A DNA stretch of 64,000 nucleotides from an uncultured Dehalococcoidia bacterium. Lineage in GTDB: Bacteria > Chloroflexota > Dehalococcoidia > Lucifugimonadales > CATOSD01. Location of the stretch: assembly GCA_951812395.1 (NCBI GenBank), contig CATOSD010000001.1, forward strand, positions 806,001 to 870,000, written 5' to 3'. Below, piece by piece: positions 2,865 to 41,681 of this stretch; within the stretch, counting starts at the first letter, position 1, and each line of letters starts with the position of its first letter. Under the pieces are notes generated by a model, which ran no database searches, was not told the DNA's origin, and was given only the letters and a program-made list of their open reading frames with translations. Made by a program: the position numbers and the translations under genes.

Positions 2865-5800
2865 CTAATTCAGCGTTCCTCCTGACGATCCAGTGGGCAA
2901 TGTGTATGTGTGATCCATCGCCAACCCAAGATACGGTCCACCGAAATTGACCGCGTTGTCAGGCTTGAGCGCCGCGTGCCACATTTCGACGCTGGACAAG
3001 GGCTGTTGCCAACCTATCCAGCTGCTAGGCGAGTCGAATCGACTGGAGGAAGTAGTATGGGAGTATAGCTCTATGTTGTCATAGACGTCCACTGGGGGGT
3101 CTCCATAGTTCGCGCGCCATGTAATCGAATCAATCGAGTAAGTTTCGCCGGTGCAACTGTTGTCCGTGCTCAGAGCCAGCTCACCAATGAAGAAGCCACT
3201 ATCCTCCCTTCGAACCTCGATGACATCGATTGAAGGGACATGGCACATTACGAACCGAGGAGTTGCCCTGGCGTGGGCGATGTCCAGGTCAGTAACGGGT
3301 ACCTTCACGCCGAAGAACTTGTCCGAGAATAGTTTGAACCCGCCGCTGACGACGCGGGAGAAGGCCCATACGACATTGAACTCCGCTTCCCGCCACGAAC
3401 GCTCTGAACGGCCCAATTGCACACAGCGTCTCCAGTCGTCCCGGTCTTGTCTCCCACAAGCCAGATCGATCGCGAAGAGTTCATCCGCCAAGTACCTGTT
3501 CCTGGGGTTCCATGCCCAATCGTTGTCATCAAATTCATACGATGAGCCGGCAAACTTGACGAGGCTGTTTACCGCGACGTCGTGTCTGAGGCATGATTCA
3601 CTGTTGGGAATGACGTCGGGGATCAGAGTACACCCCCAGTCGCCATCACTGAGCCACCCGTAATTCTCGCTCCTTAAGGCTTCCAGCAGCAAGCTGATCT
3701 CCGTTTCGCCAAACCAAAAGTAGTAAGGCGTCCCAAATACAAGGCAGTTCAGTACGTTCAGCTTGCCCTGCAGAGTCGAAGGTTCGGTCCCACCGGGCGG
3801 CAGACAGTCCAGCCCTGTGCCAGGGGGCGACGGTCTGTCCCTCCCGGCCATGCCATTTGACCCCGACCCTCCACTGCTGGAAGACTCAAGGAATCCAGGC
3901 CCCAATAGATTCGCATGCAGCTTCAACTTGTCATGTTCCCCCACGTTCGCCTCGAACTGTCTGCCGTGCGGCGTATCTAGGAGCCCTGCGTACACCGCGC
4001 TGCCAGACTTCAGCCTCGCCAGCTCGGCGCGGGCTACTCTCCGGTTGGTGTTGAACATCGTATTGGACGGCGCGGCGCAGGCGCCGCCGTCTTCCATCAG
4101 CTCTTTGGTGGTGGAGGCGTACATCGACAGGATCTGGTCGAACGAGGTGTACGTGGGTGCTGGCGTCGGCACCCGGCTTTTGCCGCCCAAGCCGCCATTC
4201 ATGCAGTTTAGCAGAGATGCCTCAGCCCTCCTGTAGTCGAGCGAGCTCGCCACCGCCGTCGACAGCTCCCCTATCATGTCTCCGACGATGGCCCACTCGT
4301 CCCAGGTGACGTGTATCGGGTCGGACTGCGCGGATGCGGCCGTGGCGTGGCTCACCACCACCCTGAACTTGCGCGTGCCTCTCGTGTAAGACGACACGTC
4401 CCTTTGGGCTGACGAGGAACTTACCCCAAGGCTGATCCAACGGTTGCTGGCCCTCTGCTGCCACTGGTAGGTGGCGTCCGACGGAGCGTCCGCGGTGGCT
4501 GTCAGCGTAACCGTGCTCGTGTCGGGATCCCCGGACTGGGGAAAATCGGGAGATGCCGCGACGGTGACAGTGATGGGCCTCCACTCGATCGATTCCGGAT
4601 TAGACTCCGACGTTACCCCCGACGTGTACTCGACCACGACCCTGAAGATTCTAAACCCGGCGTCATCGGACGAGACGCTGTTGGTGGCGTCATTGGACGC
4701 CCCCTCCAGGTCGCTCCAGCTTCCGGCGCTCCTCTCCTGCCACTGATAAGACGATACGGGTCCCTGGGACTGCGGAGTCGACGCTGTGAGCGTCACCGCC
4801 TGCCCAACGAACGGGCTTGACGTAGAAAACTCCAGTGTCGGCGGCCCGGGAGCACTGGCGGTGACCGTCACCTCATGGCTGTGCAAGGTTGTCTGACTGC
4901 CACCAGGTGGGTCATGCAACAGGTGCGCGATCACTGACGCGGTGGAAGCGCCGCAGGCGCGGATAGTTGCCTGGCGCTGGACCGATGTTCCTGTGCCGGG
5001 GTTCAAGTCGAGAAGCTCCTTATCCTTATCGGAGCAATCCTGGTTGAAACCGAAATCGCCACTCAGCACCGTCAACGTGACTTTGTACCTTTCGGCCGGA
5101 GTCAAACCAAAGGCGTCGACAGTGAAAGAGACATTCTGTCCGACCTGCGGTGTGAGCCCGGAAAGGTCCGCGATGGAGATCATGCCTGCCGGCGCTGACC
5201 CAAGCGTTACACCCGTCACGACTGGCGACCACGGACCTTGCCACGCGACGTATCTGGCTCCGTCTCCCCGGAACCGAGCTCTGAATTCGTACATGGTCCT
5301 TGCCAGAAGTCCGGACACGGTGTGCGTAATCGTACTGCTGCCCGACACATTCTCTTCAGGCAGAGTGGTCCAAGTCGAGTGTTGGGAAACCCTGAACTCA
5401 ACCTGGTACGTGGCCGCACCGTCTATCCCGGGCCACACGAGAGTCACACTGTCAGTCGTAACTTGCTGCACGGTCGGTCGCGTCGGTTTTGGAGGTGGTC
5501 CGGTCCTGGCCACGAGCGTGTTCGACCACGCGCCCCAGGTGGAGGCGCGCTCCGTTCCGTCACCATGGGCCTGGACCTGGAAATCGTACGTCCTGTAGGC
5601 GGTGAGACTCACGGTGTGTTCGGTGTCGGTCGTCTCAGTAGGCGTGTTCCAGCCTCCGCCGGACTCGCGGTGGCGCACCCGGTACTTGTCGGCGCCGCTA
5701 ATGGAAGACCACGAGAGCCGGATTGACGTGGACTGGACCGTACCGGTGATAGACGGGGCGCCAACAGTGGGCAGAGTGGGTGAGCCGACCGTGATGTCGA

Positions 5801-31965: not shown

Positions 31966-32244
31966 CTACACCAGGGGCTCGATCGTGCTGAGGTCTGTTT
32001 TGGCGCGTGCGACGCCAAGGTCGTACATGCGTTGAAGGTTCAGCCAGAACTCGGGAGTCATGGTCAGGGCACGCCCAAGGCGCAGGGCGGTGTCCGCAGT
32101 GATCGACCAGCGGCGGTGAACGATGTCGTGGATGCGCACCTGGGGGACGCCTATCGTCTTGGCCAGGCGGTACTGGGTGATACCCAGCTCCTCCAAGAAC
32201 TCGGCCAGGTGTTCTCCGGGGTGTATGTGTTCACGGGCTGTCAT
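31966..32244 (-). CDS. higA: HigA-family antitoxin (XRE helix-turn-helix), orphan
   Basis: The protein has 92 residues. It begins REHIHPGEHLAEFLEELGITQYRLAKTIGVPQVRIHDIVHRRW, the HTH of HigA/VapA-type antidotes, and ends LTMTPEFWLNLQRMYDL, also diagnostic of this family. HigA neutralises a HigB ribonuclease and represses its own operon. In the host-inhibition module higB normally lies directly upstream, but the 212 bp upstream (32245-32456) contain only repeats and no HigB-like frame. It is therefore an orphan, perhaps a remnant or a trans-acting antidote. Confidence 0.88.
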   Translation of the reverse strand: MTAREHIHPGEHLAEFLEELGITQYRLAKTIGVPQVRIHDIVHRRWSITADTALRLGRALTMTPEFWLNLQRMYDLGVARAKTDLSTIEPLV

Positions 32245-33847: not shown

Positions 33848-34162
33848 CTAGAAGAGTGCGCGGGTGGCGGTTAGGATTTCGGTCAGCTTAGCGTTGGTGA
33901 GGCGGCCGACGGTACGCCCAAGTACGCTCTCGTGCAGTGTGAAAAACCTATCCGTCCGCGCGTAACTTCGTCGCCTCAGGCGGCCTCTTGCAAGATCATT
34001 ATTCGAGATACGCACTTCTCGCCCCCGTAGCTGGTCACTACTGGTCACTTCGCAGACAATCCAATCGGACATTCCCACATCGGCCAGAACCACGGCTGGT
34101 CGGCGTTTGGCTGCCCTCAGATACGTATATGGATATCTGGCCATTACTACGTCGCCTATCAA
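33848..34162 (-). CDS. PemK/MazF-like type II toxin
   Basis: The protein has 104 residues from a TTG that overlaps the TGA of the restriction-modification gene (TTGA at 34159-34162). An in-frame ATG further upstream (34219) would overlap that gene by 61 bp. The MazF/PemK fold is recognised from IGDVVMARYPYTYLRAAKRRPAVVLAD at the N-terminus, followed by VCEVTSS and the C-terminal SYARTDRFFTLHESVLGRTVGRLT(N)AKL. These ribonucleases cut mRNA and are usually neutralised by a small antitoxin directly upstream. No antitoxin-like ORF is present here; instead the large R-M gene takes that place, so the pairing is unusual. Confidence 0.8.
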   Translation of the reverse strand: MIGDVVMARYPYTYLRAAKRRPAVVLADVGMSDWIVCEVTSSDQLRGREVRISNNDLARGRLRRRSYARTDRFFTLHESVLGRTVGRLTNAKLTEILTATRALF

Positions 34163-37100
34163 TCGGCTTGTTGCTCCTGTTGATAGATGTCTGGCATCGA
34201 GGCCCACTCGGCAAGCCACTCCTCGTCTTCTGGCCTGCTAAACATTGATTGCAGGCCCATCATCGTCCACTCGTGTTTGTCGCGGTCTCCAAAGACGATG
34301 AGTTCACCTTCATCCCAGTAAGCCATGTCGTCCACGACGTGCATCGTCTTGACGCTGACGGTGCAGACGCGCTTGAGCAGGTCTATGACGCGCTCCTTGT
34401 GGTCGGCGAAGCGGTAGGTATTGAACTTCTCGCGTATCGTCGGGTCGCGGGGTTTCTTCTCCTTGTATTGGTCCAGCACCCACTCAAGGGCGGAGCGGTT
34501 GCCGAGTTCGTATCGCCAGGCGTCGGGCGGGACGCCCGCGAGCGTGGTGTGCTCGTCCAGGATGAGCAGGCCTCTTTCCTTGTCGGGTTTGAGGATGACC
34601 TTGGGAGACTTATCGCCCGGCAACCGGCTCTCGCGGCGTTCGAGCTCGAACGGCTCGGCGGACTCGAAGCCTATGTGCAGGTCTAGCAGTTCGCGGCCCA
34701 TCTTCGCCCACACGTCGAAATCGTCGTTGTACAGGGGTAGCCGGGGGAACTCGCGCAGCAGGTCGTTGGCGTAGTCGTAGCGGTACACCGGGTCGTGGAG
34801 CACAGCGTATGTGTAGGCGAATATCTCCTCGGCGGAAATGCCGTCCGGGTAGACTTGATCAAATCTGCCGCGCCATTCCTTGCGGAAGTGGTCATTGATG
34901 CGCTCGATTCCCCAGTCGGTGATGTTGGAGACGCGCTCGCCGTCGGGGGTGTAGCGGTAGAGGGGGAGGCACTGGGCGCCGTCGAAGAACAGGTGCAGGT
35001 CAGTTAGCTTGTCAGATGCAAGCGCGGCAAACGGCCTTCGCCCGCTCGTCGCCTGAAAGCAGATGACCTTGTTAGGTTGTTTCAGGTCCTCCCCAAACAT
35101 CGCGTAGTGATTTCTAGTGAGAACATCGTTCATCGTGAAGTCAGCGAAATATTCCTTCGTTACGAAGGGACGATAAAGCGTCTGATTGCAGCTAGCCTCT
35201 GTATAGACAATGCGCCGCCCGCGCAAGAACTCGTTGCGTAGGTCTCGACTCCACTTGATAACTGGGGGATACGACTTGTCGTTCCGGTCAAGAAGTTCGT
35301 TGAAGGTGTCCACGAAGTACAGTGCTTTGTTCCGCAGATTGCGGGCGTCGAAATCGTATACCCATTCATCTCGGTTGGTGCGGACACCTACCGAGTAATG
35401 ACCGAATATCGCTCGCCTTGGGCCGGCCGTCTTGGTAGACCTAGTCTTTCTATCGGCAAGCAGTATCAGGTTCTCGAAATCGGGGTTGCCCCTATTGAGC
35501 CAATTGTGCTTTCTGTCAGGGTCGATGTCGTCAAAAGCAATGTCGGCAACGCTAGACTTTCGCAATTCATCCAACTTTGCAGGCCCGGAAAGCTCGTCGT
35601 CAAGGGTGAAGTAGTGAATCTCCCCGTCGCCTTGCCGAGCGGATTCCCGCACTAAGAAGGCGATTGCCACGCCCGTCACTATACCGAACACGTTGCCGGC
35701 GCCGGCGGTCTTTCGCACGTCGCCGCCGAGGTCTACGATGTAGGCGTGGCTGAACTCCTGTGGGAGCAGCTTTCGGAATCCGTCGTCCTGTTGGGCGTCG
35801 AGATACTTGCGGCTGGTGATGAATGCGATGATTCCGTCGTCGGAAAGGCGGTCTGAGGCCCATCGGATGAATCGCTTGTACATGTCGTACTGCTTGGTCT
35901 TCTGGGCGGTGCTCTCGGCGATGTAGGTCTCGCGGATTCGGCGGTCGATTTCGGGGTATTCGCGGTTCTTGTTGTTGTCGTTCTCGTTCTGCTGGTTGGC
36001 GTTGTAGGGCGGGTTGCCGATTATGACGCTGATGGGTTTTTCGTTCTGGAGCTGGACGCGCATCCAGTTCTCGGTCGAGAGGCCGCCGAGGTTGAAGGCG
36101 CCCTGGCGCGTGACGGAGCCGCTGGTCGCACCCGCGGTCTGCCAGTCCGTGTTGTCCAGGGTGTCGACGAACACGAGGTTGGGGAACTCCAGGTAGCGGC
36201 CGGTCTTTTCCTTGTAGGCGTACTCGATGTTGAGGTTGGCGATGTAGTAGGGCAGGATCGCGACCTCGTTGGCGTGAATCTCGTTGCGGTACTTGTACTC
36301 CAGGCGGTCGGCGGGCAGGTAGTCGATGAGACTGGTGATGAAGGTGCCGGTGCCAGTTGCGGGGTCCAGTATCTGGACGTTGTCGTCGGCGAGGGTGCGG
36401 CCGAAGTGTTTCTGGAGCAGGTGGTCTGCGCCGCGGATGATGAAGTCCACGACCTCGTTGGGGGTGTAGACGACGCCGAGCCTGTCGGCGGCGGCGGGGT
36501 TGTAGGCCTTGTAGAAGTCCTCGTAGACGGCCTTGAGAAAGCGCTGCTTTTCGGCGTAGTCGGCTATCTCGTCCGCGGCGCGTCCGATTGCGCCGTAGTA
36601 GGCGCGGAGGCGGTCGATGGCCTGGCGGCGGACGTCGCCGGTGAAGAAGGTGCGCTCGAGGTGGTCGAGCTGGCGGGCGACGTTGTTTTCGCGGTGGAAC
36701 TGGTCCTCGGCGAACACGCGCAGGAAGATGTCCTTGGTGAGGATGTGCTGTAGCAGCATCTCGCGCACGTCGGGGGCGGAGACGTCGGGGCCGATGGAGC
36801 GGCGGCACAGCTCGAGGAATGCGGCGGCGGAGGACTGGTATTCGGGGTTGTCCGTCTCGGCTGCCTCGACGGCCTCGCGCAGGTTGGCGATGACGGTGGG
36901 AAGGTCGGCCTTGAACTGGGCCTGTGCGCCGCGGAACTCCTCTATCTGCGGCAGCTCGTAGTCGAGGAAGCGGCGGATGAGGCGGTGGAGCGCGCCGGGC
37001 TGGTTCATGTCCACGCGCATGGCCACTTCGCGGTTCTGGACCAGGACGGCGGTGCGGGAGTCCTCGAAGATGATGTTGTCGCGGGGGTAGCCGGTGTCGA

Positions 37101-37377
37101 ACTTGCGCTGGATCTCCTGGTCGAGGTTGTCGCGGGAGTCCTTGGCTTCCCAGTAGCCGCGGGCCATGCGCAGGGTGTCCTTCACGGTGCCGTCGGGCCG
37201 GACGCCGCCGACGCTCAGCTCGGGGACGAGGGTGAGCTTTTCCTTGTGGGCGTCGCAGTAGGCGGCGAGGCAGTTTTGGAAGGCGGGGCGGATGTTGAGC
37301 TCACTGTCGGAGCCGCCGGCCTCGATGAGGCGGGCGAGCTCTTCGCGGTAGCGCTGTATGTGGGGGTAGGTTGGCAT
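34159..37377 (-). CDS. Single-chain restriction-modification enzyme (type IIG / ISP-like)
   Basis: The protein has 1072 residues. The N-terminal nuclease domain has a PD-(D/E)xK pattern: P61-D62 and E77-A-K79 (WEAKD). A helical part leads to the N6-adenine methyltransferase: VYTPNEVVDFII (304-315), SAM motif DPATGTGTF (338-346) and catalytic NPPY (455-458). Residues about 640-1072 resemble the target-recognition and specificity end of type ISP enzymes such as LlaBIII. No helicase motifs separate nuclease and methyltransferase, so it fits type IIG better than true ISP. One polypeptide should methylate and cut. The stop overlaps the start of a MazF-like toxin. Confidence 0.87.
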   Translation of the reverse strand: MPTYPHIQRYREELARLIEAGGSDSELNIRPAFQNCLAAYCDAHKEKLTLVPELSVGGVRPDGTVKDTLRMARGYWEAKDSRDNLDQEIQRKFDTGYPRDNIIFEDSRTAVLVQNREVAMRVDMNQPGALHRLIRRFLDYELPQIEEFRGAQAQFKADLPTVIANLREAVEAAETDNPEYQSSAAAFLELCRRSIGPDVSAPDVREMLLQHILTKDIFLRVFAEDQFHRENNVARQLDHLERTFFTGDVRRQAIDRLRAYYGAIGRAADEIADYAEKQRFLKAVYEDFYKAYNPAAADRLGVVYTPNEVVDFIIRGADHLLQKHFGRTLADDNVQILDPATGTGTFITSLIDYLPADRLEYKYRNEIHANEVAILPYYIANLNIEYAYKEKTGRYLEFPNLVFVDTLDNTDWQTAGATSGSVTRQGAFNLGGLSTENWMRVQLQNEKPISVIIGNPPYNANQQNENDNNKNREYPEIDRRIRETYIAESTAQKTKQYDMYKRFIRWASDRLSDDGIIAFITSRKYLDAQQDDGFRKLLPQEFSHAYIVDLGGDVRKTAGAGNVFGIVTGVAIAFLVRESARQGDGEIHYFTLDDELSGPAKLDELRKSSVADIAFDDIDPDRKHNWLNRGNPDFENLILLADRKTRSTKTAGPRRAIFGHYSVGVRTNRDEWVYDFDARNLRNKALYFVDTFNELLDRNDKSYPPVIKWSRDLRNEFLRGRRIVYTEASCNQTLYRPFVTKEYFADFTMNDVLTRNHYAMFGEDLKQPNKVICFQATSGRRPFAALASDKLTDLHLFFDGAQCLPLYRYTPDGERVSNITDWGIERINDHFRKEWRGRFDQVYPDGISAEEIFAYTYAVLHDPVYRYDYANDLLREFPRLPLYNDDFDVWAKMGRELLDLHIGFESAEPFELERRESRLPGDKSPKVILKPDKERGLLILDEHTTLAGVPPDAWRYELGNRSALEWVLDQYKEKKPRDPTIREKFNTYRFADHKERVIDLLKRVCTVSVKTMHVVDDMAYWDEGELIVFGDRDKHEWTMMGLQSMFSRPEDEEWLAEWASMPDIYQQEQQAD

Positions 37378-40514: not shown

Positions 40515-41681
40515 CTACAGCGGTTCAGTTCCCTCGCTTAGAACGTCGAGGTAGCGGTCGTAGGCAAACAGCCGGTTGCGACGCCGGCCCGTAATCTCGC
40601 GCGCAATGCCAAGCTCGACCAGCAGGTTCATTCCTGACGAGGTGCCCGGGAACGCCAACCCTGACCGCTCCTGCGCGTCGGACAGCGAGAGTATCGGGTC
40701 CGAGGACAGCGCCTGGTGTACTCGCAATGCGGAACTTGCTCTACGCGCTCCACGTTGCGTGATGTTCGTGCGGTCTTCCTCGAACACCTCCAACAGTTGA
40801 CGTGTGGTTGCGACAGCGCCTTGGGCCGTCTCCAGCACGCCCTCGAAGAAGAAGGCGAGCCACCTCTCCCAGTCGCCGGTACGCCGCACGCTGTCGAGCA
40901 TGTCATAGTAAGTTGAACGATGCCGCTTGAGGTAGAGGCTCAGGTACAGAAGCGGCTCGTCCAGCACTCCCGCCTCGCAAAGCAGGAAGGTGATGAGAAG
41001 CCGACCCACGCGCCCGTTGCCGTCCAGGAACGGATGAATGGTCTCGAACTGGACGTGCGCCATCCCCGCGCGGGCGAGCATGGGAAGGCCATCATCCCTG
41101 GCGTGCAGAAAACTCTCCAACGCACCCATGCAATTCATCAACTCAGTGTGTGGAGGCGGCACGTAGGCGGCATTGCCGGGGCGTGTGCCGCCGATCCAGT
41201 TCTGAGACGTGCGAAACTCGCCCGGAGACTTGTCACTGCCTCGTCCGTGCGATAGCAGCACTGAATGAATCTCCCGGATGAGCCGGTTGGAGAGTGGGAA
41301 GCCGCCGTGCAGCCGCTCCAACCCGTGATAGAGGGCGGCCGCGTAGTTGGACACTTCCACGACGTCAACCGTGGGCGCGCCGGGAGCCTGGCCCCGCTCG
41401 AACAACAGCAAGTCGGAGAGCGAGGACTGCGTCCCTTCTATCTGCGAAGATAGCACGGCTTCCTTGCGAACGTAGTTGTAGATGAACAGGGTCGGATTCG
41501 GCAGCAACTGCGTAACGCTGTCCAGTCTGCCCAGGGCGAGGAGCGCCTCTTCCAAAAGCTGTTGCAGCGCACCGTCCAATACTGTAGGAGGATCCGGCGG
41601 CAGCGGCGCGGGAATGAAGGCGCGCACCTCCTCGCCACCAAATCTGGTAACTTGGTAGCGACCAGTCTCTCCACGCTCCAT
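40515..41681 (-). CDS. Fic-domain protein (probable AMP transferase)
   Basis: The protein has 388 residues. The Fic core motif HPFLDGNGRVGR is complete, with catalytic His. The N-terminal part contains SSQIEGT, which fits the (S/T)xxxE(G/N) inhibitory helix of class II Fic proteins, so activity is probably self-inhibited. The C-terminal 80 residues look like a winged-helix domain (SDAQERSGLAFPGTSSGMNLLVELGIAREITGRRRN), as in the Fic/DOC-HTH group. These proteins transfer AMP to Ser/Thr/Tyr of target proteins. It starts beside an AT-richer spacer (41690-41780) with inverted TTAATA/TATTAA-like sequence. Confidence 0.93.
   Translation of the reverse strand: MERGETGRYQVTRFGGEEVRAFIPAPLPPDPPTVLDGALQQLLEEALLALGRLDSVTQLLPNPTLFIYNYVRKEAVLSSQIEGTQSSLSDLLLFERGQAPGAPTVDVVEVSNYAAALYHGLERLHGGFPLSNRLIREIHSVLLSHGRGSDKSPGEFRTSQNWIGGTRPGNAAYVPPPHTELMNCMGALESFLHARDDGLPMLARAGMAHVQFETIHPFLDGNGRVGRLLITFLLCEAGVLDEPLLYLSLYLKRHRSTYYDMLDSVRRTGDWERWLAFFFEGVLETAQGAVATTRQLLEVFEEDRTNITQRGARRASSALRVHQALSSDPILSLSDAQERSGLAFPGTSSGMNLLVELGIAREITGRRRNRLFAYDRYLDVLSEGTEPL

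Follow-up and report, generated by a model that had tools for sequence, protein, structure and literature searches.

The window analysed here is a stretch of 64,000 nucleotides (nt) from an uncultured Dehalococcoidia bacterium (contig CATOSD010000001.1), and it carries a gene for a single-chain restriction-modification (R-M) enzyme whose 3' end overlaps the start of a gene for a MazF-like toxin. This arrangement, with the two genes overlapping as TTGA, had been described in a sequence-only reading, and the coordinates and the PADLOC and Pfam matches confirm it. We found that the R-M protein ends in an extra tail of 54 residues, which is most likely the missing antitoxin of the toxin behind it. 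The features of the locus, all on the minus strand, are as follows.

34159-37377, minus strand: single-chain type IIG/IIL-like R-M enzyme, 1072 amino acids (aa), with fused C-terminal tail (PADLOC, Pfam and 7lo5 match).
37138-37200, minus strand: N-terminal PD-(D/E)XK nuclease motif (RPDG...YWEAKD; D62, E77, K79), presumed from its pattern.
36340-36366, minus strand: DPATGTGTF, residues 338-346, which we take to be methyltransferase motif I.
36001-36015, minus strand: NPPYN, residues 455-459, presumably methyltransferase motif IV.
34378-35409, minus strand: target-recognition region, Type_ISP_C, residues 657-1000 (279 bits).
34162-34323, minus strand: extra C-terminal tail, called type A below, residues 1019-1072, proposed antitoxin domain.
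34162-34257, minus strand: distal half of the tail, acidic and Trp-rich (...MFSRPEDEEWLAEWASMPDI...), proposed toxin-binding segment (from co-divergence).
34174-34178, minus strand: AGGAG, Shine-Dalgarno-like, 11 nt before the toxin TTG and within the R-M coding sequence (by eye).
34159-34162, minus strand: TTGA overlap of the toxin start with the R-M stop TGA (34161-34159).
33848-34162, minus strand: PemK/MazF-like toxin, 104 aa, start TTG 34162-34160 (PF02452).

The PADLOC type IIG model PDLC03621 covers residues 7-1018 of the R-M protein (E 7.7e-274), and Pfam finds the domains Type_ISP_C, N6_Mtase, Eco57I and ISP_coupler. The nuclease motif, the N6-methylase motifs and the recognition domain all lie on one polypeptide, as in the type IIG/IIL enzymes of PDB 7lo5/7lvv, which we take to be DrdV, and D62, E77 and K79 are invariant across 14 aligned sequences. 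A profile built from the window R-M and five relatives (A2) matched 7lo5 with 1400 bits, profile positions 1-1009 aligning to 1-1025 of 7lo5; the latter has 1029 residues, which leaves no room for a tail, unlike the window R-M. From its membership in this family, the enzyme is predicted to methylate and cleave DNA. A true type ISP enzyme was considered and rejected, since the protein has no translocase domain between nuclease and methylase: the helicase/translocase domain typical of that type is absent among its Pfam matches, and the type ISP enzymes LlaGI and LlaBIII align to the R-M family profile only from position 151 on.

The toxin matches PF02452 (PemK) with 42.7 bits, above the cut-off of 23.1. 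TTG is its likely start, because relatives begin with MVGD, VVGD or LVGD at the same place, where the window toxin reads (TTG)IGD. The Arg of RRP and the Thr of VTSS, which we take to be active-site residues of PemK/MazF toxins, each occur in 20 of 21 toxins of the clade described below, and the window toxin has both. The modelled toxin of a relative (L153, not the window's own) has a MazF fold (Z 14.1, root-mean-square deviation 2.6, 103 residues, 5hk0_A). We expect the window toxin to act as a ribonuclease (RNase) and to arrest growth. Neither side of the pair shows a recognisable antitoxin-like open reading frame (ORF) in the window ORF list or by Pfam, just as the sequence-only reading had stated; only two co-directional genes adjoin it, for a NIPSNAP protein upstream and an amidase downstream. 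The separate small antitoxin gene beside the toxin, which marks canonical type II toxin-antitoxin systems, was not found at the window locus.

The R-M core stops near residue 1018, and the window enzyme carries 54 residues beyond this point. Among 85 homologues outside the clade, 84 have 0-23 extra residues past the core and the remaining one has a 380-aa ATPase; PemK or ParE was found within 1.2 kb behind the R-M gene in none of the 85, four of which have less than 300 nt of downstream sequence. Among relatives of the toxin across the phylum, 28 of 29 loci (L036-L064) have an upstream ORF of at least 45 codons ending -60 to +40 nt from the toxin start, 20 of the 28 (L036-L055) closing with a motif of the DWxxxEEDxAW kind. 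The position of the small antitoxin gene in these relatives is occupied in the window by the 3' end of the R-M gene.

To follow the tail and the toxin through other genomes, 250 genomes of the window's order were searched with the R-M, the tail, the toxin and a profile of a second tail type, type B. In addition, a scan of genome contigs with the R-M protein, which considered the best 80 of at least 542 relatives and is no census, gave a clade of 24 close R-M loci (Dehalococcoidia, SAR202, Chloroflexi/Chloroflexota). Before the tree and the counts were made, we left out 25 loci that duplicate others in the same genomes, the distant L177, a second pseudogene copy (L176) and six loci that lack the R-M 3' end (L149, L175, L178, L179, L198, L199); L075, with 45 nt downstream, was excluded from the toxin counts.

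The tail search over the order gave 28 matches: in 23 the tail is intact and part of an R-M frame, in four it is broken, and one is a displaced ORF. A full-length toxin stands behind 21 of the 23 intact tails, in 20 of them directly, and none stands behind the four broken tails or the displaced one. Conversely, the subfamily has 21 full-length toxins in these genomes (132-162 bits, against 86 for the toxin ranked next), each of them behind an intact tail, and none without one was found; the nearest lower-scoring toxins examined (at most 86 bits) own a small antitoxin. At the 18 other R-M ends of the clade (four broken, five with the other tail type and nine without a tail), a full-length PemK was never present, and the difference between 21/23 and 0/18 was highly significant (Fisher P = 9e-10). 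On a tree of the R-M core, seven independent pairs on well-supported branches differ in the tail, and the toxin agreed in 6.6 of them on average and was never opposite (P = 0.016, range 0.016-0.063). With the window's own locus included, 21 loci of the order thus have both genes; the outcome that would have spoken against the pairing, R-M homologues never accompanied by the toxin, did not arise.

The sequences of tail and toxin also diverge together. In Mantel tests on 21 tail-toxin pairs, tail and toxin distances were correlated (r 0.675), and the partial correlation given the R-M core remained 0.65 (0/10,000 permutations), while the core-toxin correlation was 0.24 and fell to 0.05 given the tail. 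By segment, the correlation with the toxin was 0.68 for the distal tail and 0.38 for the proximal tail, 0.32-0.38 for the four nearest 60-column core segments and 0.18 to -0.04 for deeper segments; the last core segment varies too little to serve as a strong control in this test. The drop at the proximal half fits a toxin-binding segment in the distal half. Both parts are under purifying selection, with a pooled pN/pS (nonsynonymous to synonymous ratio) of 0.19 for the tail (11 pairs) and 0.24 for the toxin (10 pairs).

Two loci have lost the nuclease and the methylase, and tail and toxin are still open in both. In G442 (L329, G442:C1:3237500-3243500), R-M residues 805-1057 alone remain, in a 290-codon frame, and in G616 (L330, G616:C222) residues 601-806 and 932-1064 alone remain, in a 370-codon frame. 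No second close R-M copy was found in either genome. The active-site-type residues of the toxin are intact in G442, and one is lost in G616. Such retention of the tail without the enzyme would be expected if the tail is an antitoxin.

Five R-M genes of the clade bear a type B tail (DPDEGLE...) in place of type A. Against a standalone ParE antitoxin from the same group, two of these tails gave BLASTP alignments with 29 of 55 (53%) and 28 of 43 (65%) positions identical (E 1e-15 and 8e-16). A ParE-antitoxin profile matched all five, including L082 and L170, which lie outside the profile (E 1.8e-8 and 4.2e-10). ParE follows directly behind three of the five (L081, L082, L086), with an overlap of 1-4 nt; it was recognised by PF05016 in two and by profile match in all three. 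As a separate observation, L170 has a complete standalone ParE-type antitoxin at +12 to +519 past the R-M stop, whose own toxin seems to have decayed. At L082, the R-M core is followed by a type B tail, ParE, a separate type A tail ORF of 75 codons and a PemK fragment, the displaced tail and the fragment lying about 300-880 nt past the R-M stop. It seems that at this locus a new tail/toxin pair has taken the place of the older one at the 3' end of the R-M gene, an intermediate of tail exchange preserved in the sequence.

The type B profile gave 21 matches over the order: the five R-M tails, 15 short frames (70-266 codons) and one other large protein. The latter is a 1130-aa SNF2 helicase similar to BrxHI/DrmD (L303/L304, G571:C52, 1545-4934, minus strand), with a C-terminal ParE-antitoxin-like tail and a ParE toxin gene overlapping the end of the helicase gene by 7 nt. 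The two closest homologues found in the same genome family (65% and 62%) have no tail, and no ParE follows them among the ORFs listed. The helicase is an independent case of the same design.

Several observations weigh against reading the type A tail as an antitoxin. The tail had no family match in a Pfam search, and the window tail scored -1.8 bits against a profile of the C-termini of standalone PemK antitoxins, with 328 of 500 shuffles as good. Tails without a toxin occur twice with type A (L074, and L077, which keeps the first residues of a decayed toxin) and twice with type B (L165 and L170), and in L071 the toxin lies 433 nt from the tail. An active-site-type residue is altered in two toxins, L194 (G616) and L092. 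Only 13 of the 23 tail-bearing R-M frames are complete (at least 1070 codons between stops), six being cut by a contig end, two starting at most 51 nt from one and two being the remnants described above, which lie within longer sequence, and the related genomes are mostly metagenome-assembled, with an estimated contamination of up to about 9%. Linkage contributes to the tail-toxin correlation because the tail and toxin DNA are adjacent. As to structure, a first co-fold had a mean pLDDT (predicted local distance difference test) of 48.6 and was discarded. AlphaFold of a relative's natural tail-toxin read-through reached a mean of 72.8, with toxin blocks at 71-97 (most at least 86), the distal tail at about 70 and the proximal tail below 60; the toxin in this model has a MazF fold (Z 14.1 to MazF-mt3), the distal tail is modelled at moderate confidence, and we claim no docking.

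The shuffle test was applied to 22 of the 23 intact tails (L212 not included), and the best of them, L085 and L153, were equalled by 15 of 500 shuffles. A likeness of the type A tail to PemK antitoxins seen by eye (RPEDEEW against RPEEDxAW) fell at this test, and an apparent look-alike in the antitoxin of L248 was dropped when BLASTP returned no alignment. The proposal that the R-M C-terminus holds an antitoxin-like segment therefore stands in part: a toxin-linked tail exists and the tails of sister enzymes are homologous to ParE antitoxins, while the resemblance of the window tail to PemK antitoxins is not significant. Given the missing Pfam match and the shuffle-level score, the arguments for type A are its position, its exclusive linkage to the toxin, the joint loss, its survival in remnants, the co-divergence and the type B parallel.

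What the comparisons establish is an added tail, an exclusive link to the toxin within the order, joint loss, co-divergence, retention in remnants and replacement by a ParE-type tail in sisters. On this basis, we consider it quite probable that the R-M enzyme is itself the antitoxin, its tail silencing a toxin that would be released upon loss or blocking of the enzyme; binding, neutralisation, RNase activity and the trigger are what we infer. Translational coupling would let the toxin be made from the R-M message next to its inhibitor, and not before a full R-M chain is finished. The tail would capture the PemK/MazF-type RNase and keep it inactive while the enzyme is present. Once the enzyme is lost, degraded or blocked, whether its gene is lost or a phage supplies an anti-restriction factor, unbound toxin would cleave RNA and arrest the cell; the locus would then back up restriction as a second defence, make the cell dependent on the R-M gene (addiction), or do both.

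The alternative that fares best concerns purpose: the tail neutralises the toxin, but the pair serves addiction that keeps the R-M gene and not the sensing of phage anti-restriction. We hold this as a serious though lesser possibility. R and M on one chain decay together, and such an enzyme cannot kill the cells that lose it as two-gene type II systems do; the toxin would restore this killing after loss. However, the guard role and the addiction role may both hold, because both follow from the same wiring.

It is unlikely, in our judgement, that the full enzyme is just a vehicle and that internal initiation at the ATG of residue 1018 (MAYW...) yields a small free antitoxin. A Met directly before the tail is kept in the type A tails listed, small free antitoxins are the norm for related toxins, and in G442 and G616 a frame of 290 or 370 codons that includes the C-terminal end appears to be enough. 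However, the same Met is present in tail-less homologues such as L006, L065 and L066, so its conservation is explained by the core; a uniform Shine-Dalgarno sequence before it was not visible by eye; and the one locus with a separate tail ORF, L082, has a truncated toxin.

Less probable still is a tail that tethers the toxin without inhibiting it; the PemK RNase would then stay attached to the R-M enzyme, and the two would work together on invading DNA and its transcripts. Co-divergence indicates interaction or linkage without telling its sign, and would suit a tether as well. Against it, the type B tail is homologous to the C-termini of standalone antitoxins, a full-length toxin without an intact tail was seen in 0 of 18 cases, yet a tail without toxin occurs, and tail and toxin outlast the catalytic parts of the enzyme. 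The idea in the sequence-only reading that the toxin is a chance or hitchhiking neighbour whose own antitoxin was lost can be set aside as highly improbable: defence genes do cluster, and standalone PemK and ParE modules are present in these genomes, but the pair recurs at 21 loci, is lost jointly on the tree, co-diverges and has the tail itself, and the amidase, NIPSNAP and SurE neighbours are shared by 0 of 24 related loci in the available flanks, several contigs being short. Among these 24 loci, again with several short contigs, no common chromosomal site was found.

With the enzyme as the preferred antitoxin, the arrangement can be compared with known systems. In the PrrC/EcoprrI system, a type IC R-M enzyme holds an RNase in a latent state, which ends when a phage peptide disturbs the enzyme (PMC3506569, PMC12707154, PMC3874165). 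The likeness is that an RNase toxin lies in an R-M locus, with overlapping co-directional genes here, and with a toxin latent with the R-M enzyme and activated by phage anti-restriction there. However, PrrC is an ABC-ATPase/anticodon nuclease beside a multi-subunit type I enzyme, whereas here PemK or ParE accompanies one chain with an antitoxin-like tail. By analogy, the R-M/toxin pair may work like PrrC/EcoprrI with type II toxin-antitoxin parts; it is not a member of that system, because the toxin and R-M types differ. PARIS (AriA/AriB) is a separate system and not an R-M fusion. It is named as another R-M guardian in PMC12707154, and resembles the present pair as a back-up that responds when restriction is blocked.

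Compared with PemIK, MazEF and Kis-Kid, the window pair has the same toxin family and fold, a proposed inhibitor directly upstream and overlapping genes; unlike them, it has no separate antitoxin gene, the inhibitor being proposed to lie in the tail of a 1072-aa R-M protein, and the similarity of this tail to PemK antitoxins is not significant. The type B tails and toxins belong with ParDE/RelBE, but here the antitoxin segment forms part of an R-M enzyme or, in one case, of an SNF2 helicase. An antitoxin C-terminal element placed on SUMO, an unrelated stable carrier, still neutralises its toxin (PMC10440598), and a tail on an R-M enzyme is therefore mechanically plausible.

Why immunity loci bear toxins without antitoxins was asked in 2012, with the proposal that immunity proteins inhibit them and with PrrC as the demonstrated case (PMC3506569); the word 'MazF' is absent from the main text of this coupled immunity/suicide hypothesis paper. 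The accessible parts of two surveys of toxin contexts (PMC11980606, PMC10865869) do not mention an R-M fusion, and no R-M enzyme with an antitoxin domain was reported in the titles and abstracts listed by searches of open-access PMC papers, subscription papers and preprints being outside these searches. In the present case, an antitoxin-like segment is grafted physically onto an R-M enzyme and two toxin families are exchanged at one spot, and the 2012 idea therefore becomes testable by a single deletion of about 50 codons. The arrangement also suggests how addiction could arise for an R-M enzyme whose two activities, being on one chain, decay at the same time. If the proposal holds, the immune enzyme is the antitoxin, and a virus that removes or blocks it would fire the toxin. 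The case is also a warning that gene-by-gene annotation misses antitoxins concealed in large proteins.

More broadly, we lean slightly towards the view that DNA-surveillance enzymes of this order gain interchangeable C-terminal antitoxin tails with a matching toxin gene, as modular self-guarding immune enzymes built by tail exchange. Such a class would include R-M enzymes with PemK-type tails, R-M enzymes with ParE-type tails and the BrxH/DrmD-like SNF2 helicase with its ParE-type tail. At L100 (1071-5264, plus strand), an R-M core of the same family is fused in frame to a 379-aa AAA ATPase (PADLOC PDC-M31A, also AriA-like), with a PDC-M31B-like gene behind the fusion; this ATPase is a candidate guardian-type partner joined to an R-M enzyme.

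Searches were also made in plasmids and viral contigs. In plasmids, the tail matched nothing and the toxin gave one distant relative; in the five regions read among 292 plasmid records with an R-M relative, no PemK or ParE stood behind the R-M gene. The plasmid R-M gene L066 (Geminocystis) is followed about 110 nt behind by a gene annotated as Fic family (4425-5510, plus strand), and plasmid L069 has a Phd/VapC pair in front of its R-M gene. The viral contigs gave one toxin relative and 16 R-M relatives, six with 3' ends; their tails of 4-34 aa show by eye no likeness to type A or type B, and among ORFs of at least 100 codons beside these six ends none matched the PemK profile.

Elsewhere in the window, scans with Rfam (gathering scores) and for tRNA gave no match. 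A HigA-family antitoxin (TIGR02607, 97.8 bits) is encoded at 31966-32244 on the minus strand, with no HigB-like ORF beside it by eye in the ORF list, and a Fic/DOC family protein with a Fic_N domain is encoded at 40515-41681, also on the minus strand.

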